64,000 nucleotides of DNA. Source: Gammaproteobacteria bacterium RIFOXYD12_FULL_61_37 (lineage in GTDB: Bacteria > Pseudomonadota > Gammaproteobacteria > Chromatiales > Chromatiaceae). Below the pieces are notes generated by a model. That model ran no database searches. It was not told the DNA's origin and saw only the letters and a list, made by a program, of their open reading frames with translations. The translations under genes were made by a program, and so were the position numbers. The stretch spans positions 1 to 64,000 of the forward strand of contig MGZB01000044.1 of NCBI GenBank assembly GCA_001801995.1, read 5' to 3'. This document shows positions 30,849 to 48,042 of this stretch, in pieces (the first letter of the stretch is position 1; the number at the start of each line of letters is the position of its first letter).

Positions 30849-31131
30849 GGGCTATGGGTTTTCGCAAGTATCTGGCAAGGTTGCCGTAACGGACATCCGG
30901 CACAATAGCTTGTAGGAATTTTCTGACGACTATATCGAAAAACATCACCTTTTCAAGCTAACTGACCGCCGGACCGCCGGTTTCATTGATCCAGGGCGGG
31001 TGTTGGGGGTGTTCCCCTGGAAGCATCCTGCAACCGAAGAGCTATGGGTCCCTCAATCCCTTGCCATTTGCGAAATCCGTTAAACTCGCAAGAAGTTCGT
31101 GCCACAGGCTCAACAAGGATGGATATCTCTG

Positions 31132-32082
31132 ATGCAAGCATCGCCCGTCTTACCCATCGGCCTTTACCGCGCCCACTTTTCCGCCGGGGCTCCTCTGCGT
31201 TTCTCCGATTTTCCCGGCAACGCCTGGCGCGGCGCCCTGGGCCACGCCCTGAGATCGGCGGTCTGCGTCACGCGGCAAGCCCAGTGCCGCGACTGCCTGC
31301 TGTACCGATCCTGTCTCTATCCCTATTTCTGGGACACCCCGCCCCATGTGGGTGCCGAGAAGATGCGCCATTACGAGAACGCGCCCCATCCCTTCGTACT
31401 GGAGCCCGATGAAGAGGCACCCCATCGGCTCGATTTCACCCTGATCGGGCAGGCCAACCGCCACCTACCGGTCTTTATCCATGCACTGAGCCAGGCCGCC
31501 GCCGGGCCGCGTGGTGTCTCCGGTAACAGGCTGGAATTGATTCGGGTGGAACAACGGATTTCGTTGAGAACGGATGATTGGCGGCACATCTTTAGCCCTG
31601 GCGAGGCCCTCGAAACCCTGCCGGCCCAGGTGCCTGAGCCGCAGCCTGTTCCTGCCCTCTGTACCCTGGAAATAGAGACCCCACTGCGGGTCAAGCGTGA
31701 AGGCCGACACGTCGGTCCACGCGATTTTGTCTTTGCGGACCTGTTCGGCAACCTCCTGCGGCGGATCTCCATGCTGACCTACTTCCACACCGAAACGCCG
31801 CTGGAGACCGATTTCCGTGCCCTGATGGACAGCGCCCGGCAGGTAAGCGCTCGCTGCGAACTGCAATGGCGTGAGTATGGCCGTTACTCGAAGCGCCAGC
31901 AGGCCGCCATGCAACTGGGCGGCGTGACCGGGCGCATCCAGATCGATAGCACCGATCTAAGCCTCTTCTGGCCCTATCTCTGGCTGGGCCAGTTCACCCA
32001 TGCTGGCAGTGGCGCCACCATGGGGCTGGGCCGGTATCGAATCCTTGCAAGCTTGCCGCAAATACAGTCCCCGCCGTCATGA
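31132..32082 (+). CDS. cas6: CRISPR endoribonuclease Cas6
   Basis: The protein is 316 residues from ATG 31132; an in-frame GTG lies 11 codons upstream. It has the Cas6 C-terminal domain with a glycine-rich loop THAGSGATMGLGRYRI near the end. An N-terminal cluster CRDCLLYRSC at about residues 52-61 adds three cysteines that could bind zinc or iron. Cas6 cuts precursor crRNA within repeats, leaving an 8-nt 5' handle; here that would be AUUAAGAC. It opens the type III-B locus. Confidence 0.88.
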   Translation: MQASPVLPIGLYRAHFSAGAPLRFSDFPGNAWRGALGHALRSAVCVTRQAQCRDCLLYRSCLYPYFWDTPPHVGAEKMRHYENAPHPFVLEPDEEAPHRLDFTLIGQANRHLPVFIHALSQAAAGPRGVSGNRLELIRVEQRISLRTDDWRHIFSPGEALETLPAQVPEPQPVPALCTLEIETPLRVKREGRHVGPRDFVFADLFGNLLRRISMLTYFHTETPLETDFRALMDSARQVSARCELQWREYGRYSKRQQAAMQLGGVTGRIQIDSTDLSLFWPYLWLGQFTHAGSGATMGLGRYRILASLPQIQSPPS

Positions 32083-32097
32083 GCCAGGATAGCCGCC

Positions 32098-33216
32098 ATG
32101 AACCCCCCATCGACCCGCCGCATCCTCCTCGCCGTCACCGGCCTCACCCCCCAGGTAGTCACCGAGACCCTGTACGCCTTGGCGTGCCGGGGCGGGTCAC
32201 CCTGGATACCGGATGAGATCCACCTCATCACCACCGCCACCGGCAAGGAAAACGCCCGGCTCAACCTGCTTCAGGGCGAGGGCTGGTTCCATCGGCTATG
32301 CCGGGATTACGGCCTGCCGCCCATCGCCTTCACGGCAGACCAGATCCAGGTCCTGAGCGACGCTCAGGGCCAGGAACTGGACGACATTCGCACCCCGGAA
32401 CAGAACACCCAGGCCGCCGACTTCATCACCGAAAGGGTGCGCCGCCTCACCGCCGACCCGGCTACGGAGCTGCAAGTCTCCATCGCCGGGGGACGCAAGA
32501 CCATGGGTTATTACCTGGGATACGCCCTCTCCCTTTACGGCCGCCCCCAGGACCGCCTCTCCCATGTGCTGGTCTCCGGTCCCTACGAGACCAACCGGGA
32601 TTTCTACTACCCCACGCCCTACGACCACCCCATCCACAGCCGTCGCGGCGACCGGGAGATCACCCTGGACGCCCGCAACGCGCGGGTCGATTTGGCCGAC
32701 ATCCCCTTTGTGCGCCTGCGCGAGGGGTTGCCGGGCGAATTGTTGAAGGGCGCGAGCAGCTTCTCCCAGACCGTGGCCGCCGCCCAGTGCAAAGGGCGCA
32801 CCCCGCAACTGGTCATAGACCCTGCTGCACGCACCGCCACCGCTGGCGGCGAACGGCTGAAACTGACGAACCAGAACTTCGCCCTCCTGCTCTGGATGGC
32901 GCGCCGCCGTCTGGAGGGACGCGGCCCCCTCCATTGCAGCAAGGACGGCGCATCCGGCAGCGCCCGCGAATTCCTGGACCTGTTCCGGGAACTTTCCAGC
33001 GGCTTTAGCGGTGAGTTCGAACGCGCCGAGGACGCCCTGAAAAACGGCATGGACAGCACCTGGTTCAGCCCCGCCAAGAACAGGCTGCACAAGGCCCTGA
33101 TCCACGCCCTGGGTGAAAGTGGCGCCCAGCCCTACCAGATCCATCCGGTGGGCAACCGGCGCGAGGCCCTGTTCGGGCTGACCCTGGACCCCGGCCAGAT
33201 TCACATTCGTGATTGA
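32098..33216 (+). CDS. NE0113/Csm6-type CARF protein (putative ring nuclease)
   Basis: The 372-residue protein matches the NE0113-like CRISPR family: LLAVTGLTPQVVTETLYAL at the N-terminus, an internal SIAGGRKTMGYYLGYALSLYG at about residues 131-151 as the CARF ligand loop, and a helical C-terminal part (KLTNQNFALLLWMARRR) that looks winged-helix-like. Such proteins bind cyclic oligoadenylate; some degrade it. No HEPN RxxxxH ribonuclease motif was evident. It follows cas6 by 15 bp and overlaps nothing essential downstream. Confidence 0.8.
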   Translation: MNPPSTRRILLAVTGLTPQVVTETLYALACRGGSPWIPDEIHLITTATGKENARLNLLQGEGWFHRLCRDYGLPPIAFTADQIQVLSDAQGQELDDIRTPEQNTQAADFITERVRRLTADPATELQVSIAGGRKTMGYYLGYALSLYGRPQDRLSHVLVSGPYETNRDFYYPTPYDHPIHSRRGDREITLDARNARVDLADIPFVRLREGLPGELLKGASSFSQTVAAAQCKGRTPQLVIDPAARTATAGGERLKLTNQNFALLLWMARRRLEGRGPLHCSKDGASGSAREFLDLFRELSSGFSGEFERAEDALKNGMDSTWFSPAKNRLHKALIHALGESGAQPYQIHPVGNRREALFGLTLDPGQIHIRD

Positions 33217-33226
33217 GGATACCGAC

Positions 33227-34373
33227 ATGACCGACAACAGCCGAAACCGGGTCCATATCCTCTTGGTGTCCGACCAAGCGGCGGCGAACCTGCTGCCCGC
33301 CCTCGATCCTGAACTGAAACCCGCCGAGGCACTGCTGCTGGTATCCGGCAAGATGCGGCCCCGTGCCGAGGCGTTGGAAACCGTATTGCGCGAGGCGGGC
33401 GTAAAGCCCAGGTTGGTGGCATTGGAGAACGAACACGACTACGGCAGTCTCGAAAATACCCTGCTCGAAATCGCCGCCGCCCGCGAGGGGCAAGAACTCA
33501 TCCTCAACCTCACCGGCGGCACCAAGCTGATGGCACTGGCTGCCCAATCGGTCGCCCTGGCCTATGGTTGGCCCCAGTTTTACGTGGACGTGGATACGGA
33601 CGAGGTCATCTGGCTCGGCAAAGACTCCCGCCGTCAGAGGCTCAACCAGCAGCTTCGCCTGCCTCACTACCTACAGGGCTACGGCTTCAGGTTGGAGCAA
33701 GAAGTCGCGCGCCCCCAATTTTTCCCTCGGCATCAGGACCTGCTGCGTACCCTCATTACTCAGGTCGGCAGTCTGGAGAAACCCCTCGCCGAACTGAATT
33801 GGCTGGCTCAGGGAGCAGAAGACCGAAAACACCTGGAGACAACGCTGTCGCCACAGCAACAGGACAGCCGCGCACGCCTTGGAGGCCTTGCTGCGGGACT
33901 TCGCGGAGGCAGGTGTGCTTTCGGTGCTGGGCAACAAACTCAAATTCGCAAGCCAAGCCGACCTTGGCTTCGCCAAAGGCGGCTGGCTGGAACAGTATGT
34001 CTTTCGCACCCTCACGACCCTGTCCGAGGAACTGGGTCTGCGCGACAAGGCCTCCAACCTGACGGTGTTGGACCGGGAAGGCGTCAAGAACGAACTGGAC
34101 GTGGCCTTCATGGCCCGGAATCGCCTGTTCGTCATCGAATGCAAGACCGCGCGCATGGACAAACCCGAAGCGCCCAAGGCCAACGACACCCTGTTCAAAC
34201 TCGCCGAAATCTGCCGCCGCGTCGGTGGCCTGGGCACACGCGGCATGCTGGCCAGTTACCGCCCCTTGCGTGAACCGGAAAAGCGGCTGGCCGGTGCCCT
34301 TCGCATCGAACTGGTCTGCGGGGCCGAATTGGCCCGGTTGGACGAGAAAATCAGGGCCTGGGTGGAAAGATAA
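33227..34373 (+). pseudogene. Card1/Can2-like CARF nuclease, frameshifted
   Basis: Reading from ATG 33227 gives a CARF domain with ILNLTGGTKLMALAAQSVAL, then continues to TLSPQQQDSR at about 33871. The homologous continuation ALEALLRDFAEAGVLSVLG is one base ahead and runs to 34373, with a PD-(D/E)xK core KNELDVAFMARNRLFVIECK. One extra base within GCGCAC near 33870-33876 would explain the shift. A complete enzyme would be an oligoadenylate-activated DNase/RNase. The nuclease half might still start internally at TTG 33879, without the sensor domain. Sequencing error is the main alternative. Confidence 0.72.
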
Positions 34374-34454
34374 GCCAAGTGCTTCGGCAAGCTTGCCGCA
34401 AAATGAATACGTTTGAAGTCAAGGCAGAATAGGCAAAACCTCTGGGAGAGAACC

Positions 34455-35534
34455 ATGAAGCTGCTCAAATACACCGTTGAATTCAACACCCCAGCTTTTC
34501 TGGGCAACGCCGAGCAGAAAGCGCAGTGGCGCACGCCACCGTTCAAGGCCCTGCTGCGGCAGTGGTGGCGGGTAGCTTATGCCGAAGACCACCGTTATCC
34601 GCAAAGCACCGTCGCCATGCGCCGGGAGGAAGGGATGTTGTTTGGTCATGCCTGGCTGGAAAGTGACTGCGATGAGCAGGGGCGGGCGGTGGCCGCGCGC
34701 AAGAGCGCGGTGCGGATTCGGCTCGACAAGTGGGGGGTCGGCACGCTACGGGCTTGGCAACCCTTGCCAACCGTGTCTCATCCTGATGTGAAGTTTCCGG
34801 TCGGTAGCGATCTTTACCTGGGATATGGGCCGCTTACGCTGCCGCATGGCAGCAAACAACCCCAACTCAAGAACAATGCCGCGATTCAAGTCGGCGAGAC
34901 AGCGACGCTTGCCATCGCTGTGCCCGACGAGCAAGCACCACACATCGAACGCGCGCTTTGGCTCATGGATCGCTACGCCACGGCCGGCGGGAGAAGCCGC
35001 AATGGCTGGGGCTCGTTCGCTTTGCTCCCTCTCCCGCCGGGAGAGGGCCGGGGTGAGGGAACGCCGTTAGCTGGCACAACACCGCTTCGCCCCTGGCGCG
35101 ATTGCCTGTCGCTCGACTGGCCGCACGCCATCGGACAGGACGACCACGGCACCCTGATCTGGCAAACTCGCCCGTTCGACGACTGGAAAGCGCTGATGCG
35201 GGAGTTGGCTGTCGTCAAGATCGGGATGCGCACGCAGTTCAAATTTCCCAATGAACAACCGCCGCACCCGCAACCCCTGGAACGGCATTGGCTGTCTTAC
35301 CCCATCACGCGGCACAGCACCAAGGCCTGGAAAGGGACATTCCGCCTACCCAACAGCCTGCGTTTCAAGGTTCGCAAAACGCTAGAAGGCAAATTCGTCG
35401 GCGTGATCTTTCATGTGCCTTGCCTGCCGCCGCTTGATTTCAAGCCGGATCGTCGAGTCATCGAGTCCGTCTGGCAGCGCGTCCACACGTTTCTCGATGC
35501 GCCTGCCCAACAACTGACCCGCGCCCCGGCCTGA
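34455..35534 (+). CDS. cmr1: Type III-B RAMP protein Cmr1
   Basis: The 359-residue protein starts MKLLKYTVEFNTPAFLGNAE, the Cmr1 opening, with a GGGAGAG ribosome site just upstream. Cmr1 is a Cas7-like RAMP at the 3' end of the crRNA. It has RTPPFKALLRQWWRVAY and a glycine-rich TAGGRSRNGWGSF loop. At about residues 191-202 the peptide LPPGEGRGEG comes from an in-frame palindromic repeat at 35027-35059, apparently tolerated as a loop insertion. Confidence 0.9.
   Translation: MKLLKYTVEFNTPAFLGNAEQKAQWRTPPFKALLRQWWRVAYAEDHRYPQSTVAMRREEGMLFGHAWLESDCDEQGRAVAARKSAVRIRLDKWGVGTLRAWQPLPTVSHPDVKFPVGSDLYLGYGPLTLPHGSKQPQLKNNAAIQVGETATLAIAVPDEQAPHIERALWLMDRYATAGGRSRNGWGSFALLPLPPGEGRGEGTPLAGTTPLRPWRDCLSLDWPHAIGQDDHGTLIWQTRPFDDWKALMRELAVVKIGMRTQFKFPNEQPPHPQPLERHWLSYPITRHSTKAWKGTFRLPNSLRFKVRKTLEGKFVGVIFHVPCLPPLDFKPDRRVIESVWQRVHTFLDAPAQQLTRAPA
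35027..35059. repeat. Palindromic repeat inserted in frame within cmr1
   Basis: CCCTCTCCCGCCGGGAGAGG continues with GCCGGGGTGAGGG. This is a GC-rich dispersed palindrome of the kind normally found between genes. A related sequence in hsdS is at 50135-50178. Confidence 0.6.
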
Positions 35535-35543
35535 GAGGAAAGC

Positions 35544-38500
35544 ATGAACAACGATCTCATCTGGCAAACCAAACTCGCCGCCCGCGTTCACGACCCGGCG
35601 GAAAAAGCCTTGGTGCTGCTGCGCGACCCGGCGGGGCACGAAGGCGGAAGTATTGTCGGTATCGGCAAAGCGCTCGGTTTCGAGACGAATATGGTTCGCC
35701 GCCGTGATGGCACACAAGTCGAAAAACTCAATTTGCCACCCAGCATGGAACATATCGTCGAGCGGGCCGACTGGTGGGTGGCGGCGGCGGACCGGCCGAA
35801 GTGGCCCATGCAGGAAATCACTGTCACCACCAAGAAAGGCGAACAGAAAACCTTTGGGGTTGCCCCCTGGGCGCAGGTGCACTGGACGAACAAGCCGGTG
35901 CTTATCCACCCGCTGACCGGCGACCAGCTCGTCTTGGGCAAACACGGCGACCTGGGCGACACTGAGTTGGACGACATCAAGCAACGCAGTTTCGAGCACT
36001 TCTCGCGTCTCGTCATAGGTCGGGCCGTGCCCGATATGGCAGCCACGGGCCGCCCTATGGAGTCCGACTATTTACGCACCCTCCTGGCCTACTGGCGCTT
36101 CGGCCCGGAACTGATCGAGGAAGAAGACAACGGCAAGCTCGGCGCGCTTTGGGGCGTACTGCCCGCCGATACCCGCGTGCCGGATCACTCGATTTGGGAT
36201 CACCTCGACCTCACCTCCGCCTTCGCGGGCGCGTTTGCCGCCGATCCGGATGGCGATGCCGCGCTGCTGGCGCTGTCCATCGGCCCGGTGCAGGGTTTCA
36301 TTGCCAGCGCACGCACCACGTCCGACCTCTGGGCCGGTTCGCATCTGCTCTCGCGCCTGGCCTGGGAAGCGATGAAACCGGTGTGCGAAGCCCTGGGGCC
36401 GGACGCCATCCTGTTCCCGCGTCTGCGCGGCGTGCCGCAAGTGGACTTGTGGCTGCGCGGCGAGATGAATCTGCCCGACGAATTGTTCAAGGACTGCGAA
36501 TGGGCGAAGCGCGGCACCGACGCCAATCCGCTGTTCTCGGCGGCCTTGCCCAACCGATTCGTGGCGGTCGTTCCCGCCAGTCGGGCCAAGGCGCTGGCCG
36601 AAGAGGTGTCGCGCAAGGTGCGCAAATGGTTGCAGGATCAGGGCCAGGGGGTGGTTGACCGCTTGCTTGAAACTGCCGGGCTGGCGAATGAAAGCGTTCA
36701 ACACGCCCACCGCCAGATGCGGGAGCAGCTCGAAGGTTTCCCGGAAGTGCATTGGGCGGCTGTGCCGTTTTCACTGATCCACACACGCAACAAAGCCAAA
36801 CAGACTGACCTCGATGTGAGCCTGCTTTCCTCAGCCATGGCGCCGTTCTTCGGCGTGGAAGCGGGTCAGCCCTGCGGCTTTCTAGCGCAACCCGCTTGGC
36901 AGGCGCTACAGAAGGAAATCGATTGGGGTGATGGCACGGTCTTTTTCGCCCCCAACCCCGGCGTGCTTTACCCGGCGGTGTACGACCTGGCGGAACGGGT
37001 GCTGGCGGCGGCAAAAAGTACGCGCGCTTTCGACCAGACTGAACAAAAAGGCTGGCGTTGCTCGCTGACCGGCGAGGCCGAATGGCTGACCACCGACCCG
37101 GCGCAATTGCTGAAGTCCTATCGCCAGCAGACCGATACCCTGTGGGTGAAGGTGGCAGCGAAAAAACCCGCTTGGGCGAAGAAGGGCGAGCATCTAAGCG
37201 CATTGCCCGCCATCAAGCGCCTGTGGCCAACTCTGTTCGCGGAAGAAGTGGGCTTGGCATTGGCGGCTGGCGAACGCGGTGAGCAGGAAACCATCGGTCG
37301 CTTTGTGGTCTCCACCCACACCATGGCGTTGGCGCATCAACTAGACCAATGGCTGGCGCGTGGTGGACTGACCAGCGCAGGCTTCAAGCAAGCCATTGGC
37401 CACGCCGATCCGGTGGCCTTGCCACGCCGATTGATGTCTAAACATGCCCGGAACCCAGTCCTGGTCGATGCCAAACGCATCCCCGGCTTGCTGGAAGCCG
37501 CGCGCGATGCCGACGACGACGCGGCGCTGGAACAGGCGCAGCGACTGGTGCGGCAAACGCTGGCGCAAGGCACGGACAAGGGCGAGGAAATCAAGCTCGA
37601 AACCTATTACGCGCTCCTCATGATGGACGGCGACCGCATGGGCGCCTGGCTTTCCGGTGGCGACGACTACGCCATTCCGTACCGCAAGAGCTTCCACCCG
37701 CAAGTGCAAGACGGCTTCGACAAACATGCCGCCAAGCAGAAGCTGATCCAGGCCTATGGCGCGCAAAAACGGGCGCTTTCGCCCAACCGACATCTGGCCA
37801 TTTCCGGCGCGCTCAACGACTTTTCGCTCAGCGTGGTGCGCCATGTGGTGGAAGAAGAACATCTTGGCCGGGTGATCTATGCCGGCGGCGACGATGTGCT
37901 CGCCATGTTGCCGGTGTCGGACTTGCTTTCATCCATGCAGCGTTTGCGGCTGGCCTATTCCGGGGACGACCCAGCCCATGAAGGCGGGCGCGACCCGCGC
38001 GGCCTGACCCTGCAAAATGGCTTCGCCATGCTCAAAGGCAAGCTGATGCGGATGATGGGTACGAAAGCCACGGCCAGTTGCGGCGCGGTCATCGCCCATC
38101 ATCAAGCGCCTCTGGGGGCGGTGATGCGGGAACTACGCGAGGCGGAAAAGCGCGCCAAGAACGAGGGGGAGCGCGATGCTTTTTCCATCACCGTCATCAA
38201 GCGTTCCGGCGGTGCGCTCCGTCTTACGGAAAAATGGGGTGAACCGGTGATGCTGCTTGGCAACTTGCGGGATTTCCTCTCCGACAAAGCAACCTCGCGC
38301 CGCGCCGTCTATCACAGCCTGGAATGGATGACGGACCTGCCAGATCCCAAGGGCAAGCCGGAAATACTGGCTTCGTTACTTGGCTATCAGTTTGATCGTC
38401 AGATCAAACCGAAAGAAAAGGAACGGGTGCGTGAAGAACACAAGGTATCCGACCTGGCCCGTCGCCTTGCATCGCTCGCCGCAGCCCAACCCAAGGACAG

Positions 38501-38576
38501 CCTGAAGTGGCTGGAAAACTTCCTCACTGTGGCCGAGTTCCTGGCCCGTGAAACCCGCGCCGGAGAACAAGCATGA
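35544..38576 (+). CDS. cas10: Type III-B Cas10 (Cmr2)
   Basis: The 1010-residue large subunit has an N-terminal HD-like site (ARVHDPAEK, His16-Asp17), a first palm with MMDGDRMGAWLSG near residue 692, and the cyclase motif YAGGDDVLAML with GGDD at about 779-782. Both nuclease-type and polymerase-type sites therefore look intact. Cas10 makes cyclic oligoadenylates when the Cmr complex binds target RNA, and the downstream sensor genes fit that role. It follows cmr1 by 9 bp and overlaps cmr3 by 4 bp. Confidence 0.95.
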   Translation: MNNDLIWQTKLAARVHDPAEKALVLLRDPAGHEGGSIVGIGKALGFETNMVRRRDGTQVEKLNLPPSMEHIVERADWWVAAADRPKWPMQEITVTTKKGEQKTFGVAPWAQVHWTNKPVLIHPLTGDQLVLGKHGDLGDTELDDIKQRSFEHFSRLVIGRAVPDMAATGRPMESDYLRTLLAYWRFGPELIEEEDNGKLGALWGVLPADTRVPDHSIWDHLDLTSAFAGAFAADPDGDAALLALSIGPVQGFIASARTTSDLWAGSHLLSRLAWEAMKPVCEALGPDAILFPRLRGVPQVDLWLRGEMNLPDELFKDCEWAKRGTDANPLFSAALPNRFVAVVPASRAKALAEEVSRKVRKWLQDQGQGVVDRLLETAGLANESVQHAHRQMREQLEGFPEVHWAAVPFSLIHTRNKAKQTDLDVSLLSSAMAPFFGVEAGQPCGFLAQPAWQALQKEIDWGDGTVFFAPNPGVLYPAVYDLAERVLAAAKSTRAFDQTEQKGWRCSLTGEAEWLTTDPAQLLKSYRQQTDTLWVKVAAKKPAWAKKGEHLSALPAIKRLWPTLFAEEVGLALAAGERGEQETIGRFVVSTHTMALAHQLDQWLARGGLTSAGFKQAIGHADPVALPRRLMSKHARNPVLVDAKRIPGLLEAARDADDDAALEQAQRLVRQTLAQGTDKGEEIKLETYYALLMMDGDRMGAWLSGGDDYAIPYRKSFHPQVQDGFDKHAAKQKLIQAYGAQKRALSPNRHLAISGALNDFSLSVVRHVVEEEHLGRVIYAGGDDVLAMLPVSDLLSSMQRLRLAYSGDDPAHEGGRDPRGLTLQNGFAMLKGKLMRMMGTKATASCGAVIAHHQAPLGAVMRELREAEKRAKNEGERDAFSITVIKRSGGALRLTEKWGEPVMLLGNLRDFLSDKATSRRAVYHSLEWMTDLPDPKGKPEILASLLGYQFDRQIKPKEKERVREEHKVSDLARRLASLAAAQPKDSLKWLENFLTVAEFLARETRAGEQA

Positions 38577-39703
38577 GCGCCATCGAATACCGTTTTCTGG
38601 AACCGCTGGATGTCCTGTTCCTGCGCGGCAACAAGTTGTTTGGCGACCCCGGCAGTTACGGCGAATCGCTGGTGCCGCCCTGGCCATCGGTAGCAGCGGG
38701 CGCCTTGCGTTCGCGCATGTTGGCCGACGACAGCGTGGATTTGGCTGCTTTTGCCGCCGGGCGAGTGGAGCATCCCTCGCTGGGCACGCCCGAAAATCCG
38801 GGTACATTCCAAGTCACAAGCTTCCAAATGGCCCGCTTGCTGGCCGATGGCCGGGTTGAGCCGCTGATCGCCCCGCCTGCTGATCTGATCATCAACGAGC
38901 AAGACAGCAAGGCCAACTCGGTGCGTACCCTCAATCCCTCTGCACCCGCCGCCGGTGTGCTGTCATCGTCGCCCTTGCCGAATCTGCCGGTGCTCGCCGA
39001 GGCCGAACGTGGAAAAGCGGCTTCCGGTTACTGGCTGACCGAGGCCGGTTGGCGCAAGTATCTGGCGGGTGTGTTGCCGTTGCCGGCCGATCTCGTCAAA
39101 AGCAATGAACTCTGGTCCATTGATCCCCGTGTCGGTGTGGGCCTGGATGCCGCCACCCGCCGCGCCGCTGACGGGAGGTTGTTCTCCGTGCAGGCGGTGG
39201 CGATGCAACCCGGCGTCGGTTTTCTGGTTGGCGTTGCAGGCGCCGTACCCCCAGCAAGCGGCATGGTCCGTCTGGGCGGCGACGGCCGGGCGGCGGCCAT
39301 TCATGCCGCGGCGCCGAATGTGGCCGAACCCGACTACGCCGCCATCGTCCGTGCTGGACGTTGTCGTCTCGTTCTTGCCACACCGGGGATTTTTCCCGAG
39401 GGCTGGAAGCTGCCGGGTCTCGATGCCGAAGATCGCTTCCATCTGGGCGAAGTCAGCGGTCGTCTCGTTTGTGCCGCAGTACCGCGCGCTGAAGTCGTTT
39501 CCGGTTGGGATTTGGCCAAGTGGCAACCCAAACCCGCGCAACGCGCCGCGCCCGCCGGCAGCGTCTATTGGCTGGACGAACTCAACGCCACGCCCGAGGC
39601 GCTCCGCAAGCTTGCCGATGCAGGATTGTGGGGCAAAGGCGGCGAAGATGCGCAACGCCGGGCCGAAGGCTTCAACCGGTTCGGGTTGGCAGCTTGGAAA
39701 TAA
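38573..39703 (+). CDS. cmr3: Type III-B RAMP protein Cmr3
   Basis: The 376-residue protein begins MSAIEYRFLEPLDVLFLRGN and contains GDPGSYGESLVPPWPSVAAG and FQVTSFQMARLL, as in Cmr3, a Cas5-like subunit that caps the crRNA 5' handle next to Cas10. Its ATG overlaps the cas10 stop. The next gene begins 12 bp downstream but is not a cas gene. Confidence 0.92.
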   Translation: MSAIEYRFLEPLDVLFLRGNKLFGDPGSYGESLVPPWPSVAAGALRSRMLADDSVDLAAFAAGRVEHPSLGTPENPGTFQVTSFQMARLLADGRVEPLIAPPADLIINEQDSKANSVRTLNPSAPAAGVLSSSPLPNLPVLAEAERGKAASGYWLTEAGWRKYLAGVLPLPADLVKSNELWSIDPRVGVGLDAATRRAADGRLFSVQAVAMQPGVGFLVGVAGAVPPASGMVRLGGDGRAAAIHAAAPNVAEPDYAAIVRAGRCRLVLATPGIFPEGWKLPGLDAEDRFHLGEVSGRLVCAAVPRAEVVSGWDLAKWQPKPAQRAAPAGSVYWLDELNATPEALRKLADAGLWGKGGEDAQRRAEGFNRFGLAAWK

Positions 39704-39715
39704 AGGGAGAAGAAC

Positions 39716-41977
<2,262 letters not shown>

Positions 41978-41978
41978 C

Positions 41979-43169
41979 ATGCCGATTGCAGCAGTTCCCA
42001 ACTATCTGGGCACGGATTTCCAGCACGCCTCGCCGGGCATGCGGTTTGGCATGTATCTCAAACTGTGGGAAGGCTCGGCTTGGTCAAAAAGCAAGGACAA
42101 GCCACTTGACGGCGCCAAACGCTTGAACGATTGCGACAAGCAAACCATGCGGGAGCTGCTGGCTCGCCAGAAGCAGGTTTTCGTCGTGGCGGTGGCGACG
42201 GAAGCTGCCTTTCAGCTCGATGCCCTCGCCACCGCCCCCTTCACCACCGGTCTGGGCAATGAGCACCCGCTGGAGAACGGCTTCGCCTTCTTGAATCCCT
42301 ATGGCCTGCCCTACCTGCCCGGCAGTGGAATCAAGGGCGTACTGCGCCAGGAGGCGCGGGAACTGGCCCGTGGCGACTGGGGCGATACGCAGGGTTGGGA
42401 TGCGGCCGCCATCAACGCCCTGTTCGGCAAGGAAAGCAGCGACGGCGACATCGACCACCTGCGTGGTGCGTTGAGCTTCTGGGACGTGATCCCTCAGATT
42501 GCCGGCGACAGCCTGACCGTGGAAATCATGACCCCGCACCAGTCCCACTACTACCAACATGGCCAATCACCCCACGAATCCGGCCAGCCCAACCCCATCA
42601 GCTTTCTCACCGTGCCGCCCAAGTCGCGCTTTGTTTTCCATGTTCAATGCGACCTCGCGTACCTCAACCGGCTTGCCCCCAGCTTGGTCGCAAGCGACTG
42701 CTGGAAAGTCCTGCTGGATGCTGCTTTTCACCATGCCTTCAACTGGCTCGGCTTCGGCGCTAAGACAGCGGTGGGCTATGGTGCCATGCAGGAAAATCCC
42801 GCCGCTAAAGCGGAACATGAACAAAAAGAAGCAGAGGGCCGTGCCGAAGCTGAACGCCTGGCCAAGGAAGCCCGCCGCCAAACCATGACCCCGGAAGAGC
42901 TGGCATGGGAAGAGCGCCAGCCCACCATCGAACAGTTCCGCAGGCTATTCGATGCCGCCCGCGCAGCCCCCTACCAGCCCGGCGGACAATTCGACAATCA
43001 GCGAATGGGTTTCATGAAGACCGCCCTGGATTGGCAGGACAAACGCAGCCGCAATGCGGCGGCTGAACTGCTCAGGGAGACCATGACCAAGGTCTGGGGT
43101 ATGCCCGGCAAGAAAGAAACCAAGCAGCGGTTCCAAGAGGCCATCGAACAACTTGGAAGTCAAACATGA
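41979..43169 (+). CDS. cmr6: Type III-B RAMP protein Cmr6 with C-terminal extension
   Basis: The 396-residue product has the Cmr6 core with LENGFAFLNPYGLPYLPGSG and IKGVLRQEARELARG, then HLRGALSFWDVIPQI. After about residue 285 an extra region starts with a charged coiled-coil (EQKEAEGRAEAERLAKEAR) and goes on for over 100 residues, making it longer than typical Cmr6. The stop overlaps csx16 as ATGA. The extension could contact accessory proteins. Confidence 0.9.
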   Translation: MPIAAVPNYLGTDFQHASPGMRFGMYLKLWEGSAWSKSKDKPLDGAKRLNDCDKQTMRELLARQKQVFVVAVATEAAFQLDALATAPFTTGLGNEHPLENGFAFLNPYGLPYLPGSGIKGVLRQEARELARGDWGDTQGWDAAAINALFGKESSDGDIDHLRGALSFWDVIPQIAGDSLTVEIMTPHQSHYYQHGQSPHESGQPNPISFLTVPPKSRFVFHVQCDLAYLNRLAPSLVASDCWKVLLDAAFHHAFNWLGFGAKTAVGYGAMQENPAAKAEHEQKEAEGRAEAERLAKEARRQTMTPEELAWEERQPTIEQFRRLFDAARAAPYQPGGQFDNQRMGFMKTALDWQDKRSRNAAAELLRETMTKVWGMPGKKETKQRFQEAIEQLGSQT

Positions 43170-43477
43170 CCACCTACCTCATCACCCGCCACCCCGGCGC
43201 CATCAAGTGGGCCGCTCGCCAAGGCATTGAGGTGGACGAGCAAATCGCCCATCTTGACCCCGCCCGCATCCGGGCCGGTGACTGCATCATCGGCACGCTG
43301 CCGGTGAATCTGGCCGCCGAGGTTTGCGCGCGGGGCGGGCGGTTTTTCAATCTCTCGCTGGATCTGCCGCCGGAGGCGCGGGGGCGGGAGTTGTCCGCTG
43401 ATGAGCTGGAACGCTTCGGGGCGCGGCTGGAGGAATATCGGGTCCAGCCGGTTGCGGATCAGCCGGGCAAGAATTAG
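43166..43477 (+). CDS. csx16: CRISPR-associated protein Csx16
   Basis: The 103-residue protein begins TTYLITRHPGAIKWAARQG and has VDEQIAHLDPARIRAGDCII and LSLDLPPEARGRELSADELE, the Csx16 pattern. Csx16 is a small Rossmann-like protein common in type III loci and considered a ring nuclease candidate that removes cyclic oligoadenylate. Coupled by ATGA overlap to cmr6, it would be made with the complex. Family identity is strong; enzymatic role is inferred. Confidence 0.88.
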   Translation: MTTYLITRHPGAIKWAARQGIEVDEQIAHLDPARIRAGDCIIGTLPVNLAAEVCARGGRFFNLSLDLPPEARGRELSADELERFGARLEEYRVQPVADQPGKN

Positions 43478-43511
43478 TCTGACAGAGAAGGTAACGAATG
43501 GAGCAAAAGTC

Positions 43512-43754
43512 ATGTATGCCATGAAAATGTCAGAAGGCGGAAGGGTTGTCATTCCGGCAGAAATCCGTAAGGCGCTGGGGCTCCATGAGGGTGACACGGT
43601 CATCTGGGAAATGGGGAAGGGCGAAGCGCGGCTGTTCACACGGCGCGAACAGTTGCATCGCGCCCAGGCGCTGATACGTCAGTACGTGCCGGAAGGTGTG
43701 TCGCTGGTCGATGAGTTGATCGCGGAGCGCAGAGCCGAGGCCGCGAATGAGTGA
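43512..43754 (+). CDS. AbrB/MazE-type antitoxin
   Basis: The 80-residue protein has a SpoVT/AbrB swapped-hairpin domain: KMSEGGRVVIPAEIRKALGL followed by HEGDTVIWEMGKGEARLF. The C-terminal helix region (LIRQYVPEGVSLVDELIAER) would bind the toxin. Its stop overlaps the PIN gene start by 8 bp, the normal antitoxin-toxin order. ATG 43512 gives the expected short N-terminus. Confidence 0.85.
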   Translation: MYAMKMSEGGRVVIPAEIRKALGLHEGDTVIWEMGKGEARLFTRREQLHRAQALIRQYVPEGVSLVDELIAERRAEAANE

Positions 43755-44154
43755 GTTCGTTCTCGATGCCTCTGCCATGCTGGCGTTTCTCAACGACGAA
43801 CCCGGCGCCGGGCGCGTGTCCGACATCCTGCTGGGGCGGCGAGGGGTGCTGCTGGCGGTCAATCTGACCGAGGTGTTGACCCGTCTGGTGGACTGGAAAG
43901 TGCCCCTTGCGGAGGCCAGGGCGCGGCTGGACAACCTCGATTTGCCAATTTTGCCATTCGACCACGCGCTTGCCTTCGCGGCCGCCGAGTTGCGCACCCC
44001 CACCCGCCACCTGGGCCTGTCTCTGGGAGACCGCGCCTGCCTGGCGCTGGCCAAGTCCTTGGGCGCGGTGGCCGTCACTGCCGACCGGCCCTGGCTCGAA
44101 CTCAGCCTTGGCATCGAGATCGAGTGTGTGCGCCCCGGCGAAGCGGCGACATGA
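43747..44154 (+). CDS. PIN-domain toxin (VapC-like ribonuclease)
   Basis: The 135-residue protein starts FVLDASAMLAFLNDEPGA with the first catalytic Asp, has NLTEVLTRLVDW with the conserved Glu, and ends with LSLGDRACLALAK and AVTADRPW for the remaining acids. VapC-type PIN ribonucleases cut tRNA or rRNA unless bound by their partner. It overlaps the next gene (ATGA), so the toxin-antitoxin pair is fused into the CRISPR transcript and not merely adjacent. Confidence 0.88.
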   Translation: MSEFVLDASAMLAFLNDEPGAGRVSDILLGRRGVLLAVNLTEVLTRLVDWKVPLAEARARLDNLDLPILPFDHALAFAAAELRTPTRHLGLSLGDRACLALAKSLGAVAVTADRPWLELSLGIEIECVRPGEAAT

Positions 44155-44669
44155 ACCAACTGCTCTGGATCATCAACGAAATACTGAACCCCATCGGCAT
44201 TGTGATCGGGATCGTTCTGGCCGTGCCGGTGTTCTGGACCTGGTGGCAGGTCGTCTTTGGCGAGCGGCGCCAGCGGCGGAAATGGCTGGCGGAGATCGCC
44301 CGCAATCCCGGCGGCCGTCCGGGGGTGCTGATCGTCGATCTGCTGCCCGGCAAGGCAATTGGGGCCAGTGTGCGCCGCCACCTGGCAGCCGATGCGGCCT
44401 TGGCCTACATCACGGATGACCGCATCGCCAGCGTTACGCGCGCCGCCGCACTCAAGCCTGAACAAGTGACCGATCTTGCCCGCGATATTCGCGCGGCGGC
44501 ACGAAAACTGATGGATGCGGGTGTCGATGTCGTTCACCTCTTTCATGCCGGCCCTGACATCTCCGCGTTTCTGGTGGCCGCAGAGCTGTCCAATGGCCCT
44601 CGCGTCATGCTCTACCACCACGAACAAGGCGCCTATCGCTGTTTCGGGCCGCTCGAACCCCTGCGCTGA
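44151..44669 (+). CDS. Membrane-anchored SAVED-like protein (candidate cOA-gated membrane effector)
   Basis: The 172-residue protein has one strong membrane helix at about residues 5-31 (ILNPIGIVIGIVLAVPVFW) followed by RRQRRKW, which puts the C-terminus in the cytoplasm. The soluble part ends with VVHLFHAGPDISAFLVAAEL, NGPRVMLYHHEQGAYRCF, matching the core strand-helix-strand of SAVED/CARF nucleotide sensors. A TM helix plus a cyclic-nucleotide sensor is the design of Cam1, a CARF membrane effector of type III systems. It is coupled to the PIN gene by ATGA and precedes cas2. SAVED assignment is by eye. Confidence 0.65.
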   Translation: MNQLLWIINEILNPIGIVIGIVLAVPVFWTWWQVVFGERRQRRKWLAEIARNPGGRPGVLIVDLLPGKAIGASVRRHLAADAALAYITDDRIASVTRAAALKPEQVTDLARDIRAAARKLMDAGVDVVHLFHAGPDISAFLVAAELSNGPRVMLYHHEQGAYRCFGPLEPLR

Positions 44670-44748: not shown

Positions 44749-45030
44749 ATGAACCGCCGTCTCTACCTTGCCGCCTACGATGTCGCTGACCCGCGCCGGT
44801 TGCGCCATTCGCTGGAGCTGGTCAAGGGCTACGCCACCGGCGGCCAGAAGTCGGCCTATGAATGTTGGCTCTCGGACGGGGAGCGGGCCGCACTGCTCAA
44901 GGAAATGTCGCTGCTGCTGGAAGAGGACCAGGACAGTTTTCTGCTCATCGGCCTCGACCCGCGCTCCACCGTCCTCACCCTGGGGATCGCGGACGAACCC
45001 CATGACGCCAGCCTGTTTTACATCCAATAG
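44749..45030 (+). CDS. cas2: Cas2 (first copy)
   Basis: The 93-residue protein begins MNRRLYLAAYDVADPRRLRH, the Cas2 opening with the acidic YDVAD motif, and continues with GGQKSAYECWLSDGERAALL. Cas2 dimers bridge Cas1 dimers in spacer integration. Two bases separate it from cas1. A 79-bp gap with a perfect palindrome CCGCAAGCTTGCGG (44673-44686) lies upstream and may hold a start of transcription or a terminator. Confidence 0.88.
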   Translation: MNRRLYLAAYDVADPRRLRHSLELVKGYATGGQKSAYECWLSDGERAALLKEMSLLLEEDQDSFLLIGLDPRSTVLTLGIADEPHDASLFYIQ

Positions 45031-45032
45031 CC

Positions 45033-46013
45033 ATGACCACCCTGGTTCTCGACCGCTCCAATCTCGAAGTCCGCGCCGACGGCGCGGCCCTGGCCCTGTA
45101 CGAAGGCGAGGAACGTAGCGGCACAGTGCCTCTGAAGCTGCTGGAGCGCGTGGTTATCCAGGGCAACGTCCGGCTGGATACCGGGGTGCTCACCAAGCTG
45201 GCGGAAGCGGGTATTGCTATCCTACTGCTCTCCAAGCGCCAGACTCGCCGGGTCGCCATCATCCTCGGCACCGCCCACAACGACGCTGCCATCCGCCTGG
45301 CCCAAGGCCGGCGGGTCTTCGATACCGCTTGGTGCGATGCCTGGGCGCGCCGGCAGGTCATCGCCAAGACCCGCGCCCAGATACGCCTGCTGATGGACGG
45401 GCTGGCGGCGCGGCCCGATCAGCGCAAACCCCTTACCGATGCCATCGCCCGGCTGCATCAGGCGCTGGAAGGACTGGCCCAGGAGGGTATCGGCAGCGCC
45501 AGCATCCGGGGTATCGAAGGGGCCGCCGCCCGCAGCTATTTCCAGGGTCTGGCCGCCTTGTTTCCGCCCGCGCTCGGCTTCAACGGCCGCAACCGCCGGC
45601 CGCCGCGCGACCCGGTCAATGCCTGCCTTTCCCTGGGCTACACCCTGCTGCACTTCGACGCCGTGCGTGCCTGCCACATGGCCGGGCTCGATCCTCTACT
45701 GGGCTTCTACCACCGCCCCAGCTTCGGGCGCGAATCTTTGGCTTCCGATCTCATCGAGCCCCTGCGGCCCCATTGGGACCGGGAGGTCTGGTCCCTTTTC
45801 CGTGGCCACGTCTTGCGCCAGGACCATTTCACCCAGGACAAAGGCGCCTGCCTGCTGGGCAAGGCTGGGCGCGCTGCCTTCTACCGCGACCACGAATTTC
45901 AGGCGCCACCCCTTCGCCGCCTGTTGCTGCGCCAGTGCCGCATCCTGGCCCGTCACCTCAAGGCAGAAAGCGAGTCGCTGCTTGCCCAGGATGAAGAGGA
46001 AGAATTCGCATGA
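45033..46013 (+). CDS. cas1: Cas1 integrase (first, catalytically complete copy)
   Basis: The 326-residue protein has all three metal ligands expected of Cas1: Glu162 in RGIEGAAARSYF, His227 in LGFYHRPSFG and Glu242 in SDLIEPLRP. N-terminal beta-sandwich motifs precede (LVLDRSNLEVRADGAALAL). It catalyses integration of new spacers together with Cas2. The stop overlaps a second cas1-like gene by 4 bp. Confidence 0.95.
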   Translation: MTTLVLDRSNLEVRADGAALALYEGEERSGTVPLKLLERVVIQGNVRLDTGVLTKLAEAGIAILLLSKRQTRRVAIILGTAHNDAAIRLAQGRRVFDTAWCDAWARRQVIAKTRAQIRLLMDGLAARPDQRKPLTDAIARLHQALEGLAQEGIGSASIRGIEGAAARSYFQGLAALFPPALGFNGRNRRPPRDPVNACLSLGYTLLHFDAVRACHMAGLDPLLGFYHRPSFGRESLASDLIEPLRPHWDREVWSLFRGHVLRQDHFTQDKGACLLGKAGRAAFYRDHEFQAPPLRRLLLRQCRILARHLKAESESLLAQDEEEEFA

Positions 46014-46798
46014 ATCTCCAGACCACCTCCCCGCGACTGCCGCTTTACCTTCAAGGCAAACGCCCGACCCAGGTGGGTGCCGATGGCCCCGCGCTACGGG
46101 TGATAGTGGCCAACGGTGCTCCCCTGCGCTATCCCCTGGCCCGGCTGGCCCGCGTCATCTCCACCCAGCGCGTGAACTGGCGGGGCGAGGCCATCGCCGC
46201 CTGCTTGTGCGAAGGCCTGCCTATCGTCTTTCTGGACAACGCCGGCGAACCCGCCGGTTATCTCATGCCCCTGCAAGGCAAGCCGTCGCGTCTGGATGGC
46301 CTTCTCGAAGAGTTGCTGGCCCTTCCCGAAGGGGATGTCTGCTACAACAACTGGCTGCGCGCCGCCCGCATGAGTCTCCTGCACGCCTGGCGCCACCGCC
46401 GGGAACAGGCGGGAGAGCCCATCGCCGAGGAGGAGTTTCACGAACTGATCCATCGGCACCTCTACCAGCCGGAACTGGAGAACCACGCCTTTGTCCGGGC
46501 TGGACCCTATGCCGGAGCGCTTCTGGCCCGTGTCCTCCAGGCCCTGCATCAAGCGGGTCTGAAGCCCCGCTACTGGTGCCACCAGGGCAGGCCCATCGAA
46601 CTGGCGGCGGATATCGCCCAACTTCTGGGGCTTTCCCTCTATCTCGACATGCGCGGCTTCATGGATCAGGCCCAGGGCGACAACGCCGCGCTGCTATACT
46701 TGCTGCACAAAGCAGGTTCGCGCCTGGAAACCGGGCTGACGGAACTGCTGGGCAGCTTGCACCGCAGAGTCAAAATCAGGGTGGAAGAATGGCGCTGA
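46010..46798 (+). CDS. Second Cas1-like protein lacking the catalytic residues
   Basis: The 262-residue protein has a Cas1-type N-terminal domain (LPLYLQGKRPTQVGADGPAL, PLARLARVISTQ, GLPIVFLDNAGEPAGYL) and a helical C-terminal domain. The regions aligning with the Cas1 active site lack a Glu followed by GxxGxxxxYF, lack the GFxH loop and lack the DLxEPxR block; CYNNWLRAARMSLLHAW stands in the corresponding place. It is therefore probably inactive and structural or regulatory. It overlaps cas1 by 4 bp and the second cas2 by 10 bp. Confidence 0.75.
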   Translation: MNLQTTSPRLPLYLQGKRPTQVGADGPALRVIVANGAPLRYPLARLARVISTQRVNWRGEAIAACLCEGLPIVFLDNAGEPAGYLMPLQGKPSRLDGLLEELLALPEGDVCYNNWLRAARMSLLHAWRHRREQAGEPIAEEEFHELIHRHLYQPELENHAFVRAGPYAGALLARVLQALHQAGLKPRYWCHQGRPIELAADIAQLLGLSLYLDMRGFMDQAQGDNAALLYLLHKAGSRLETGLTELLGSLHRRVKIRVEEWR

Positions 46799-47175
46799 AT
46801 CAAACCCGCACCTGGCTGATAGCCTACGACATCACCTGTCCTAAACGGCTGGGCCGGGTGCATCGCTATCTCAAAGATGTCGCCACACCCATGCAGTACT
46901 CCGTCTTCACGGCGGAAGAGAACACCCAAGGCATACTGCGCATCCGTGACCAACTGGCGGCCCGGATCGACCCTAAAACGGATGATGTCCGCATCTACCC
47001 CCTGCCCAGCAACCTGGAACTCCACGCCATCGGCCGCCGCCGGTTGCCCGAAGGCGTCATGTTGCTGTCGGGCAACCCATCCCGCAGCACCGGACGCATT
47101 CTGGGATCAGACCGGGACGAACCGGACAGTATCGTCAACCCCCATCGCAACCCATTGATCGAGAGGAGGAATTAA
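46789..47175 (+). CDS. cas2: Second Cas2-like protein, longer than usual
   Basis: The 128-residue protein opens with TRTWLIAYDITCPKRLGRVH, a Cas2 motif with YDI acids, followed by YLKDVATPMQYSVFTAEE and DDVRIYPLP. It diverges strongly from the first Cas2 (93 residues) and has a C-terminal tail of about 40 residues (GNPSRSTGRILGSDRDEPDS). The first CRISPR repeat begins 9 bp after its stop, so no separate leader exists at this end; the leader may lie inside this gene. Start ATG 46789 lies within the preceding reading frame. Confidence 0.85.
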   Translation: MALNQTRTWLIAYDITCPKRLGRVHRYLKDVATPMQYSVFTAEENTQGILRIRDQLAARIDPKTDDVRIYPLPSNLELHAIGRRRLPEGVMLLSGNPSRSTGRILGSDRDEPDSIVNPHRNPLIERRN

Positions 47176-47184
47176 ACTACAGCA

Positions 47185-48042
47185 GAACCAACAAACGACC
47201 TGATTAAGAAGGGATTAAGACTTGGTGGAAGTCCTCAATAGCTTCTACTAGAATGAACCAACAAACGACCTGATTAAGAAGGGATTAAGACGAAAAGTTT
47301 GGTGAACGTGATACTCATTTTTGGAACCAACAAACGACCTGATTAAGAAGGGATTAAGACCATTTCGTGCGTTCCCCTCATAAGTCGTTTGTGAACCAAC
47401 AAACGACCTGATTAAGAAGGGATTAAGACGGAGTATAAAGTCGCATTCAGTACACCGATTGAGAACCAACAAACGACCTGATTAAGAAGGGATTAAGACT
47501 GTTCACGCTCTACTCATTACTCATTGAAAATGCGAACCAACAAACGACCTGATTAAGAAGGGATTAAGACGATTGCAAGCGCATGCTGTTGGGCACCAGC
47601 ACGGGAACCAACAAACGACCTGATTAAGAAGGGATTAAGACTGTGCCTCTGTTCCCACTGCGTAACGGAGTTTCCGAACCAACAAACGACCTGATTAAGA
47701 AGGGATTAAGACCGCGCCGGTGCGGTATCCGCTGCTGCTGAATGGAACCAACAAACGACCTGATTAAGAAGGGATTAAGACGTATCGGACACCACCATTC
47801 CGTTTGCGCAAACGAACCAACAAACGACCTGATTAAGAAGGGATTAAGACAGATGCGCGAGCAGCCAGGGCCGTAGGGTGCGGTGAGGTACGAACCGCAC
47901 CATTCGCGGGCGACGCCGACGCGATTGATGCGGTTCGCTATCGCTCACCGGCATCCTACCTGTCGAATTGAAGACCCATTTGCTCGGCGTAGTCGGCTAT
48001 TGCAAAAGAACCAACAAACGACCTGATGAAGAAGGATTAGGC
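47185..48042 (+). CRISPR. CRISPR array, 37-bp repeats, ten good repeats plus a degenerate terminal one
   Basis: Ten identical 37-bp repeats begin GAACCAACAAACGACC and end GGGATTAAGAC, at 47185, 47255, 47324, 47393, 47463, 47534, 47605, 47676, 47745 and 47814. Nine spacers are 32-34 bp. After 47850 come 157 bp interrupted by a GTAGG...CCTAC hairpin element, then a mutated repeat at 48008-48042, which marks the trailer end. The repeat 3' end ATTAAGAC fits a type III crRNA handle and indicates transcription in the cas direction. Confidence 0.97.
47873..47959. repeat. GTAGG...CCTAC hairpin repeat, copy 4, inside the array end
   Basis: Eighty-seven bases from GTAGGGTGCGGTGAGGTACG to CCTAC share arms with 22754-22824 and have a longer middle. 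It lies between the tenth repeat and the degenerate terminal repeat. Confidence 0.75.

Follow-up and report, generated by a model that had tools for sequence, protein, structure and literature searches.

A triad-less Cas1 in a four-gene adaptation block

The window (the whole stretch analysed here, 64,000 nucleotides (nt) of contig MGZB01000044.1 from Gammaproteobacteria bacterium RIFOXYD12_FULL_61_37) carries a type III-B locus of clustered regularly interspaced short palindromic repeats (CRISPR) on its + strand, with a four-gene adaptation block inside it, immediately 5' of the CRISPR array. Two cas2 paralogues, cas2A and cas2B, enclose cas1 and a second Cas1-like gene, dcas1, whose product (dCas1) lacks the Cas1 active site. 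We conclude that dCas1 is probably the dedicated non-catalytic Cas1 subunit of one Cas1-dCas1/Cas2A-Cas2B integration complex with specialised subunits. An earlier sequence-only reading of this DNA had suggested that active and inactive Cas1 form a heterocomplex with two types of Cas2, and this is still the best reading of the co-occurrence of the genes in a fixed order, their tight junctions and long co-retention, the loss of the triad, the predicted retention of the Cas1 fold, purifying selection, the single dCas1 clade, and the joint absence of dCas1 and a Cas2A tail.

Known Cas1-Cas2 integrases are built from a Cas2 dimer surrounded by four identical Cas1 chains; each Cas1 dimer has one catalytic chain (Cas1a) and one non-catalytic chain (Cas1b). 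In the proposed complex, Cas1 would supply catalysis, and dCas1 would permanently take the non-catalytic Cas1b role, pairing with Cas1 through its N-terminal domain and binding both Cas2 and the repeat DNA. The central pair would consist of Cas2A and Cas2B, which would make the two halves of the complex non-identical. We infer the complex, its stoichiometry, the Cas1b role of dCas1, the Cas2A-Cas2B heterodimer and any functional asymmetry from the features of the genes described below.

The block and its array comprise:

44749..45030, + strand: cas2A, first Cas2 paralogue, 93 amino acids (aa), C-terminal Phe-Tyr tail SLFYIQ (Pfam PF09827, 1.1e-9)
45033..46013, + strand: cas1, catalytically complete (E162/H227/E242), 326 aa (Pfam PF01867, 8.6e-69, residues 5-285)
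46010..46798, + strand: dcas1, triad-less paralogue with a predicted full-length Cas1 fold, 262 aa (PADLOC PDLC01185, 3.8e-40; Pfam Cas1, 7.3e-6, residues 20-89 only)
46789..47175, + strand: cas2B, second Cas2 paralogue, 128 aa (Pfam PF09827, 2.3e-14)
47185..47850, + strand: CRISPR array, 10 repeats GAACCAACAAACGACCTGATTAAGAAGGGATTAAGAC, period 69-71 nt, first repeat 9 nt after the cas2B stop
48005-48039, + strand: degenerate repeat downstream of the array

All four genes described in the sequence-only reading, two divergent Cas2 proteins bracketing Cas1 and a Cas1-like protein, thus have Pfam support. They overlap or nearly touch, as it had noted: the junctions are +2 nt (cas2A-cas1), -4 nt (cas1-dcas1, an ATGA in which the dcas1 start overlaps the cas1 stop) and -10 nt (dcas1-cas2B). 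The open reading frames (ORFs) for Cas2 proteins of 93 and 128 residues were also as described, but the larger figure is inflated. The conserved part of Cas2B ends near residue 95, its relatives have a median of 103 aa, and the last ~30 residues in the window lie beyond this part, where relatives have the leader. A Tyr-Asp motif near the N terminus is a defining feature of Cas2. Both paralogues combine the PF09827 profile match with this motif; its conservation is at least 90% among the aligned Cas2A proteins and complete among the aligned Cas2B proteins.

Loss of the catalytic triad in dCas1

Triad positions were compared across 109 Cas1 rows (of 111 collected; the window Cas1 occurs twice and loci without dCas1 are included) and 75 dCas1 rows (of 92 entries). 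The Cas1 triad read from the window alone proved to be conserved, with E162 and H227 in 109/109 rows and E242 as Glu in 107 and Asp in 2. With its whole-protein profile match and E/H/E triad, cas1 belongs to PF01867. The second protein had been described as lacking the active-site residues, and the full triad indeed occurs in none of the 75 dCas1 rows: E162 is matched by Glu in 2 (63 gaps), H227 by His in 9 (59 gaps) and E242 by Glu in 9, where the gaps come from a sequence alignment and not from superposed coordinates. dCas1 is a PF01867 member by its predicted Cas1 fold with both domains and lacks the catalytic E/H/E triad. All nine dCas1 with His belong to the Nitrospirota-type branch; most read GLDPHxGV(L/I)H, but Tyr or His replaces E242, and one of the nine (L113) also has Glu at the first triad position. 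Asp239, a Cas1 residue outside the triad, is kept in 60 of the 75.

A triad at shifted positions would have spoken against the loss, but neither such a triad nor an alternative set of acids and histidine was found in the conservation of the 75 rows. The only acids kept in at least 60% of them are D25, D201 and E233, no histidine is among the positions kept in at least 50%, and in the window dCas1 position 233 is occupied by His. This bears on a further explanation, in which dCas1 has acquired an enzymatic or signalling job unrelated to integration. The strong divergence of its C-terminal domain would fit such a change of function, but no new set of conserved catalytic-type residues accompanies it and dcas1 adjoins cas1 in the loci examined; we regard this explanation as very unlikely.

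Predicted fold, domain conservation and selection

Profile comparison, an AlphaFold model, and Foldseek and VIA structure matches all indicate that dCas1 is, in its predicted structure, a complete non-catalytic Cas1 shortened by ~60 residues. The dCas1 profile aligned to Cas1 in hhalign with E 3.1e-20 over 254 columns. The model, built from 75 sequences, has a mean predicted local distance difference test (pLDDT) score of 93.0 and a predicted template modelling (pTM) score of 0.90. Its best VIA match is 8flj_D (Z 17.3, root-mean-square deviation 4.0, 244 residues aligned, 12% identity), and Z ranges over 14-17 across the 50 rows listed. Titles among the 50 Foldseek and 50 VIA matches listed are those of Cas1, Cas1-Cas2 or Cas-DNA complexes, casposase and Cas1 fusions, except for 2yzs and 3god, whose titles carry no Cas1 name; 2yzs is also matched by the window Cas1. 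Foldseek ranked some Escherichia coli Cas1-Cas2 chains above others, a difference that might reflect the non-catalytic conformation, and we draw no claim from chain ranks. A PDB sequence search with the window dCas1 alone returned chance-level matches only; the dCas1 family profile found Cas1 chains there, N-terminal domain first.

The two domains are unequally conserved. In dCas1 the mean column entropy is 2.45 bits for the N-terminal domain and 3.11 bits for the C-terminal domain, so the former is better kept, whereas in Cas1 (2.04 vs 1.90 bits) it is not. The N-terminal domain of Cas1 is its dimerisation domain. dCas1 has the traits required of a dedicated Cas1b: the Cas1 fold is predicted to be retained, the N-terminal domain is relatively well kept and the active site is missing.

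dCas1 is under purifying selection. Of 11 close pairs, two are saturated and another two have dS >2; in the nine that could be computed, the ratio of nonsynonymous to synonymous substitution rates (dN/dS) for dcas1 is 0.04-0.48. Where the ratio was computable for both genes (8 pairs), it is higher for dcas1 than for cas1 in 6. The frame is of normal length in 67 of 69 dCas1 loci (62 from the sample described below, the window, and six found through dCas1). Damaged copies occur in three loci: L008 has an in-frame stop, L010 is chimeric and truncated, and L132 is probably frameshifted. These copies are what would be expected if dcas1 were a decaying duplicate of cas1, an explanation that we consider extremely unlikely in view of one long-kept clade, purifying selection, frame lengths and the confidently predicted Cas1 fold. 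Random decay is rejected for the family as a whole on frame lengths, dN/dS and the single clade; the possibility that relatives of the second protein were random decaying pseudogenes is likewise contradicted by a four-gene block kept across loci.

By eye, the chimeric copy in L010 joins the start of dCas1 to the C-terminal part of an NE0113/Csx1-like protein, and is the product of recombination or of an assembly error. A natural dCas1-Cas2B fusion was considered for L132 and rejected: there is an ATG where cas2B usually begins, and the C terminus of dCas1 is off-family, which makes frameshift read-through likelier. The fusion flagged in L058, a single ORF with the dCas1 profile early and the Cas1 profile later, shows the pattern of an ordinary Cas1.

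Conservation and spread of the block

The fairest sample consists of 80 genome loci chosen by Cas1 similarity alone, the best 80 of 580 confirmed candidates; being the best-scoring, they represent the nearest relatives of the window Cas1 and not Cas1 in general. With dcas1 called present at 25 bits or more against profile A1 (lowest call L120, 26 bits), dcas1 follows cas1 in 62 of the 80, both cas2 genes are found in 78 and all four genes in 61. The contig of L060 stops short of cas2B, and dcas1 and cas2B of L121 are ~2.4 kb apart. Conservation together with retained loss of the triad had been set beforehand as the test of the proposal, and the 62 loci and the uniform absence of a full triad bear it out. 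The cas1-dcas1 junction overlaps in 51 of 69 loci and the dcas1-cas2B junction in 44 of 67 (start codons script-chosen).

Searches with dCas1 profiles in 55 relatives and 369 genomes of the class returned 24 non-window loci beyond a match to a reverse transcriptase (RT)-Cas1, 23 of them with all four genes, L008 with its in-frame stop among these; the set includes the chimeric L010 and is biased, because it was retrieved via dCas1. In a phylum-wide draw of 398 genomes, 34 genomes matched alignment A1 at E 1e-6; only seven of them, the window's own included, reach 74 bits, and the weaker matches are short and N-terminal, as ordinary Cas1 gives. By record titles and NCBI lineages, dCas1 loci occur in Pseudomonadota, Nitrospirota, Acidobacteriota, Planctomycetota, Myxococcota ('Deltaproteobacteria') and Aminicenantes; because many records are metagenome bins, individual assignments may be in error. 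No dCas1 homologues were found on plasmids by tblastn at E 1e-5 or among viruses in IMG/VR (patterns from P0003), and the array and spacers had no matches in phage records at megablast sensitivity.

Evolutionary history

A Cas1 tree was built from 88 rows (the 80 loci, the window and seven loci fetched by dCas1 alignment, of which L037 is without dCas1). On it, presence and absence of dcas1 require 5 changes, vs 17.5 for shuffled labels. A joint tree was built from 31 chosen dCas1, 34 Cas1 of the family and 20 ordinary Cas1 as outgroup and root. In it dCas1 forms one clade, sister to the family Cas1 (97-99 in the Shimodaira-Hasegawa-like approximate likelihood ratio test, SH-aLRT). The Cas1 of loci without dCas1 are nested within the family Cas1, ten of them joining five dCas1-bearing Cas1 at support 96; several deeper forks are weak (29-58). 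This topology fits a single basal duplication in the family with subsequent losses. The trees come from quick searches, their support labels may shift on re-rooting, and they carry no approximately unbiased (AU) test.

Cas2A tails and the partners of dCas1

The Cas2 tree (188 rows, 94 columns) splits Cas2A from Cas2B by a single change, and many of its forks are unresolved. The C-terminal Phe-Tyr tail of Cas2A (e.g., FYVG) is present in 67 of the 69 dCas1 loci and in 0 of 15 in a clade lacking dCas1, where Cas2A has PFMIV-like ends. A passage of PMC8102632 on the Cas6-RT-Cas1-Cas2 structure places the Cas2 C-terminal segment (88-96) in contact with the non-catalytic Cas1b, and in E. coli with Cas1b'. 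The Cas2 element that touches the non-catalytic Cas1 in known complexes thus differs where dCas1 is absent, and by this analogy the tail is the strongest hint that dCas1 may be a dedicated Cas1b. A passage of PMC6895254 adds that the non-catalytic Cas1 contacts the repeat and may help to set the second integration site. In the dCas1-less clade (e.g., L087, L090 and L099) Cas2B often has a GIxWTGLPAA-like end (most of 12 tails printed). It is as if both Cas2 tails there were adapted to a different Cas1 partner.

The same data bear on two other arrangements of the four proteins. Cas1 and Cas2A could form one complex that integrates while dCas1 and Cas2B form another, whose task would be to capture or measure prespacers, or to mark the leader, and to hand the prespacers over. 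The gene layout is suited to this: dcas1 and cas2B often overlap, and a short gap separates cas2A from the cas1 that follows it. Cas2B is however kept in 15/15 loci of the dCas1-less clade, so it has a role without dCas1, and the clearest dCas1-linked tail difference sits on Cas2A; we judge separate complexes unlikely. Alternatively, dCas1 could have no place in the working integrase and act as a negative regulator, forming non-productive dimers with Cas1 that limit the uptake of self-spacers. A best-kept N-terminal domain, tight junctions that would couple the dose of dCas1 to that of Cas1, and absence from some lineages would all suit an inhibitor. Yet a pure inhibitor should be lost more often than a gene kept in 62 of 80 loci, some with large all-different arrays (L078, L126), and a structural contact accounts better for the different Cas2A tail of the dCas1-less clade. 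We consider regulation an improbable explanation.

Several points weigh against dCas1 as a subunit of a single integration complex. Eighteen of the 80 loci, namely the clade of 15 with L081, L091 and L138, have no dcas1, and dCas1 is thus not indispensable in every system. Both cas2 genes are kept in 17 of these 18, so that dCas1 and the paired Cas2 are separable. The Cas2A tail difference is one evolutionary event, not many. In L081 and L091, single losses of dCas1 in which Cas2A is present, the Phe-Tyr tail is still there, and the dCas1 loci L124 and L131 are without the tail pattern. A looser pattern scored 4 rather than 2 loci without dCas1 as positive. The overlap counts lean to tight junctions, because the script picked the start nearest the preceding stop, and gene neighbourhood alone does not prove a complex. 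The placement of dCas1 could also be distorted by long-branch effects, because the protein is fast-evolving and its stem is long; its exact position is uncertain.

Effector partners and arrays

Of the 62 dCas1 loci, 19 have matches to the cmr genes of the window within reach, a count limited by short contigs. Twenty large ORFs from dCas1 loci without cmr matches include seven III-A Cas10/Csm1 (L077, L083, L106, L107, L109, L119, L133) and five Csm5-like or III-D Cas7-like proteins (L072, L130, L131, L136, L139); five match no such family. The block is a type III adaptation module moving among subtypes rather than a III-B trait, because it also occurs with these III-A and III-D-like effectors. 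Ten ORFs from dCas1-less loci comprise, among others, four Cas10a and three Csm5-like proteins; with such similar effectors, subtype alone does not account for whether dCas1 is present. Three of the 20 large ORFs near the block are of adenosine deaminase type, one matching a CARF-ADA profile (L111, 996-3227) and two adenosine deaminase profiles (L080, 1528-3717; L088, 1429-3849).

The array lies within 500 nt after cas2B in 26 of the 62 dCas1 loci, just before cas2A in 3 and elsewhere in the locus in 5. Another 16 have no adjacent array and a contig that ends within 400 nt of cas2B, and in 12 no array was detected by a detector that needs three exact copies. Unique array intervals number 128/128 in L078, 102/102 in L126 and 68/73 in L129. 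Large arrays of this kind, with all or nearly all intervals different, suggest working adaptation in several loci that bear the block.

Comparison with known systems

The dCas1 protein is not newly discovered, because PADLOC-DB already holds it as PDLC01185, 'Cas1, diverged variant, second in the loci'. The window dCas1 matches this profile at 3.8e-40 over 245/246 positions and follows cas1, as the entry describes, and the profile matches 70 of 75 dCas1 family members at E 0.001. The entry consists of the profile and its one-line description, without function, triad status, the two Cas2 paralogues or distribution. A literature search of titles, abstract starts and some passages found no paper on the block, a dead Cas1 paralogue, the two-Cas2 pairing or their function; most subscription papers fall outside its coverage, making this weak evidence of absence. 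The passages of PMC12669027 matching 'diverged cas1' concern Cas10.

The canonical Cas1-Cas2 integrase (E. coli, Cas1-Cas2/3, type I-C) shares the Cas1 and Cas2 folds and the Cas1 triad, and already has catalytic and non-catalytic Cas1 positions. Most of the Cas1 chains among the listed structural matches of dCas1 come from such complexes. It differs in using one gene for both Cas1 positions and one for Cas2, whereas the window block has two genes for each. RT-Cas1 modules, as in Marinomonas mediterranea and on contig C5 of the same genome as the window, also serve type III adaptation, but have an RT fusion and one Cas1. Contig C5 (G000, L140 6449-9906) carries the RT-Cas1 fusion, two cas2 genes ~0.85 kb later and then a 37-repeat array; in a congener (G001, L141) two cas2 genes directly follow RT-Cas1. 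In the C5 module the only match to dCas1 is that of the RT-Cas1 ORF itself. The two Cas2 proteins of this module stand apart from Cas2A as well as from Cas2B in the Cas2 tree, which may mean that Cas2 pairing evolved more than once. Type III-B (Cmr) systems with csx16 and CARF/SAVED effectors have the same effector genes as the window, whereas the block is also found with III-A and III-D-like effectors.

Other genes of the window locus

The remaining genes of the locus, upstream of the block, are:

31099..32082, + strand: cas6-like gene (weak TIGR01877 match, E 0.021, below cut-off)
32098-33216, + strand: NE0113/Csx1 CARF gene, between the cas6-like and Card1-like genes
33209-34373, + strand: Card1-like CARF-PDDEXK gene (CARF part in ORF 33209-34273)
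34413..43169, + strand: type III-B effector operon cmr1, cas10/cmr2, cmr3, RhuM-Fic, cmr4, cmr5, cmr6 (profiles and sequence reading)
43166..43477, + strand: csx16 (TIGR02620, 1.5e-34)
44124..44669, + strand: two-helix membrane SAVED/CARF-like protein (PDLC01160 'CARF, 2 TMs', 4.1e-63)

The presence of cas10/cmr2, cmr genes and a CRISPR array identifies the locus as type III-B. Profiles support cas10 (PADLOC match 1.3e-93; next-ranked models Cas10b, 2.4e-76), cmr5 (TIGR01881, 2.8e-7, above cut-off) and RhuM-Fic; cmr1, cmr3, cmr4 and cmr6 were named by sequence reading, without a profile, and their relatives occur in identical order in other loci. The RhuM-Fic gene (39716-40693, + strand) sits within the operon in the cmr3/cmr4 interval, with relatives in 2 of the 62 dCas1 loci, L062 (in the same place) and L072. 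The Card1-like gene is apparently broken, as an overlapping frame (33879-34373) resembles its nuclease half by eye, though it matches no NCBIfam model; a frameshift or an assembly error is possible. Between csx16 and the adaptation genes (43401-44154, + strand) lie a PIN gene, identified by Pfam, and an AbrB-like ORF, identified by eye, perhaps a toxin-antitoxin pair; PIN relatives are present in dCas1 loci L062, L101, L111 and L134. In L101 and L118 a relative of the SAVED/CARF-like protein is encoded directly 5' of cas2A; in L074 one lies ~1.7 kb upstream of it.

Implications for type III adaptation

A preprint (PMC12259127) describes, in a passage, the Cas1-2/3 integrase as C2-symmetric and raises the problem of inserting spacers in the correct direction. 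A Cas2A-Cas2B heterodimer would break such symmetry by construction. Tentatively, and with some doubt, we put forward an asymmetric integrase in which two Cas1-dCas1 pairs sit on Cas2A-Cas2B and in which protein, rather than trimming dependent on a protospacer adjacent motif (PAM), would distinguish the prespacer ends or the leader and spacer sides of the repeat. If asymmetry matters, the Cas2 pair is its likelier source, because both Cas2 genes persist without dCas1. Were this true, PAM-free type III systems would gain a means to set the orientation of the spacer or the order of both integration steps.

Little is known of type III adaptation. In known integrases, identical chains hide both the job of the non-catalytic Cas1 and the way in which a two-fold symmetric machine inserts in one direction. 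In the block described here these roles are apparently split into separate genes, each of which could be deleted, mutated or tagged alone, and this would make orientation and the division of labour within the integrase testable.

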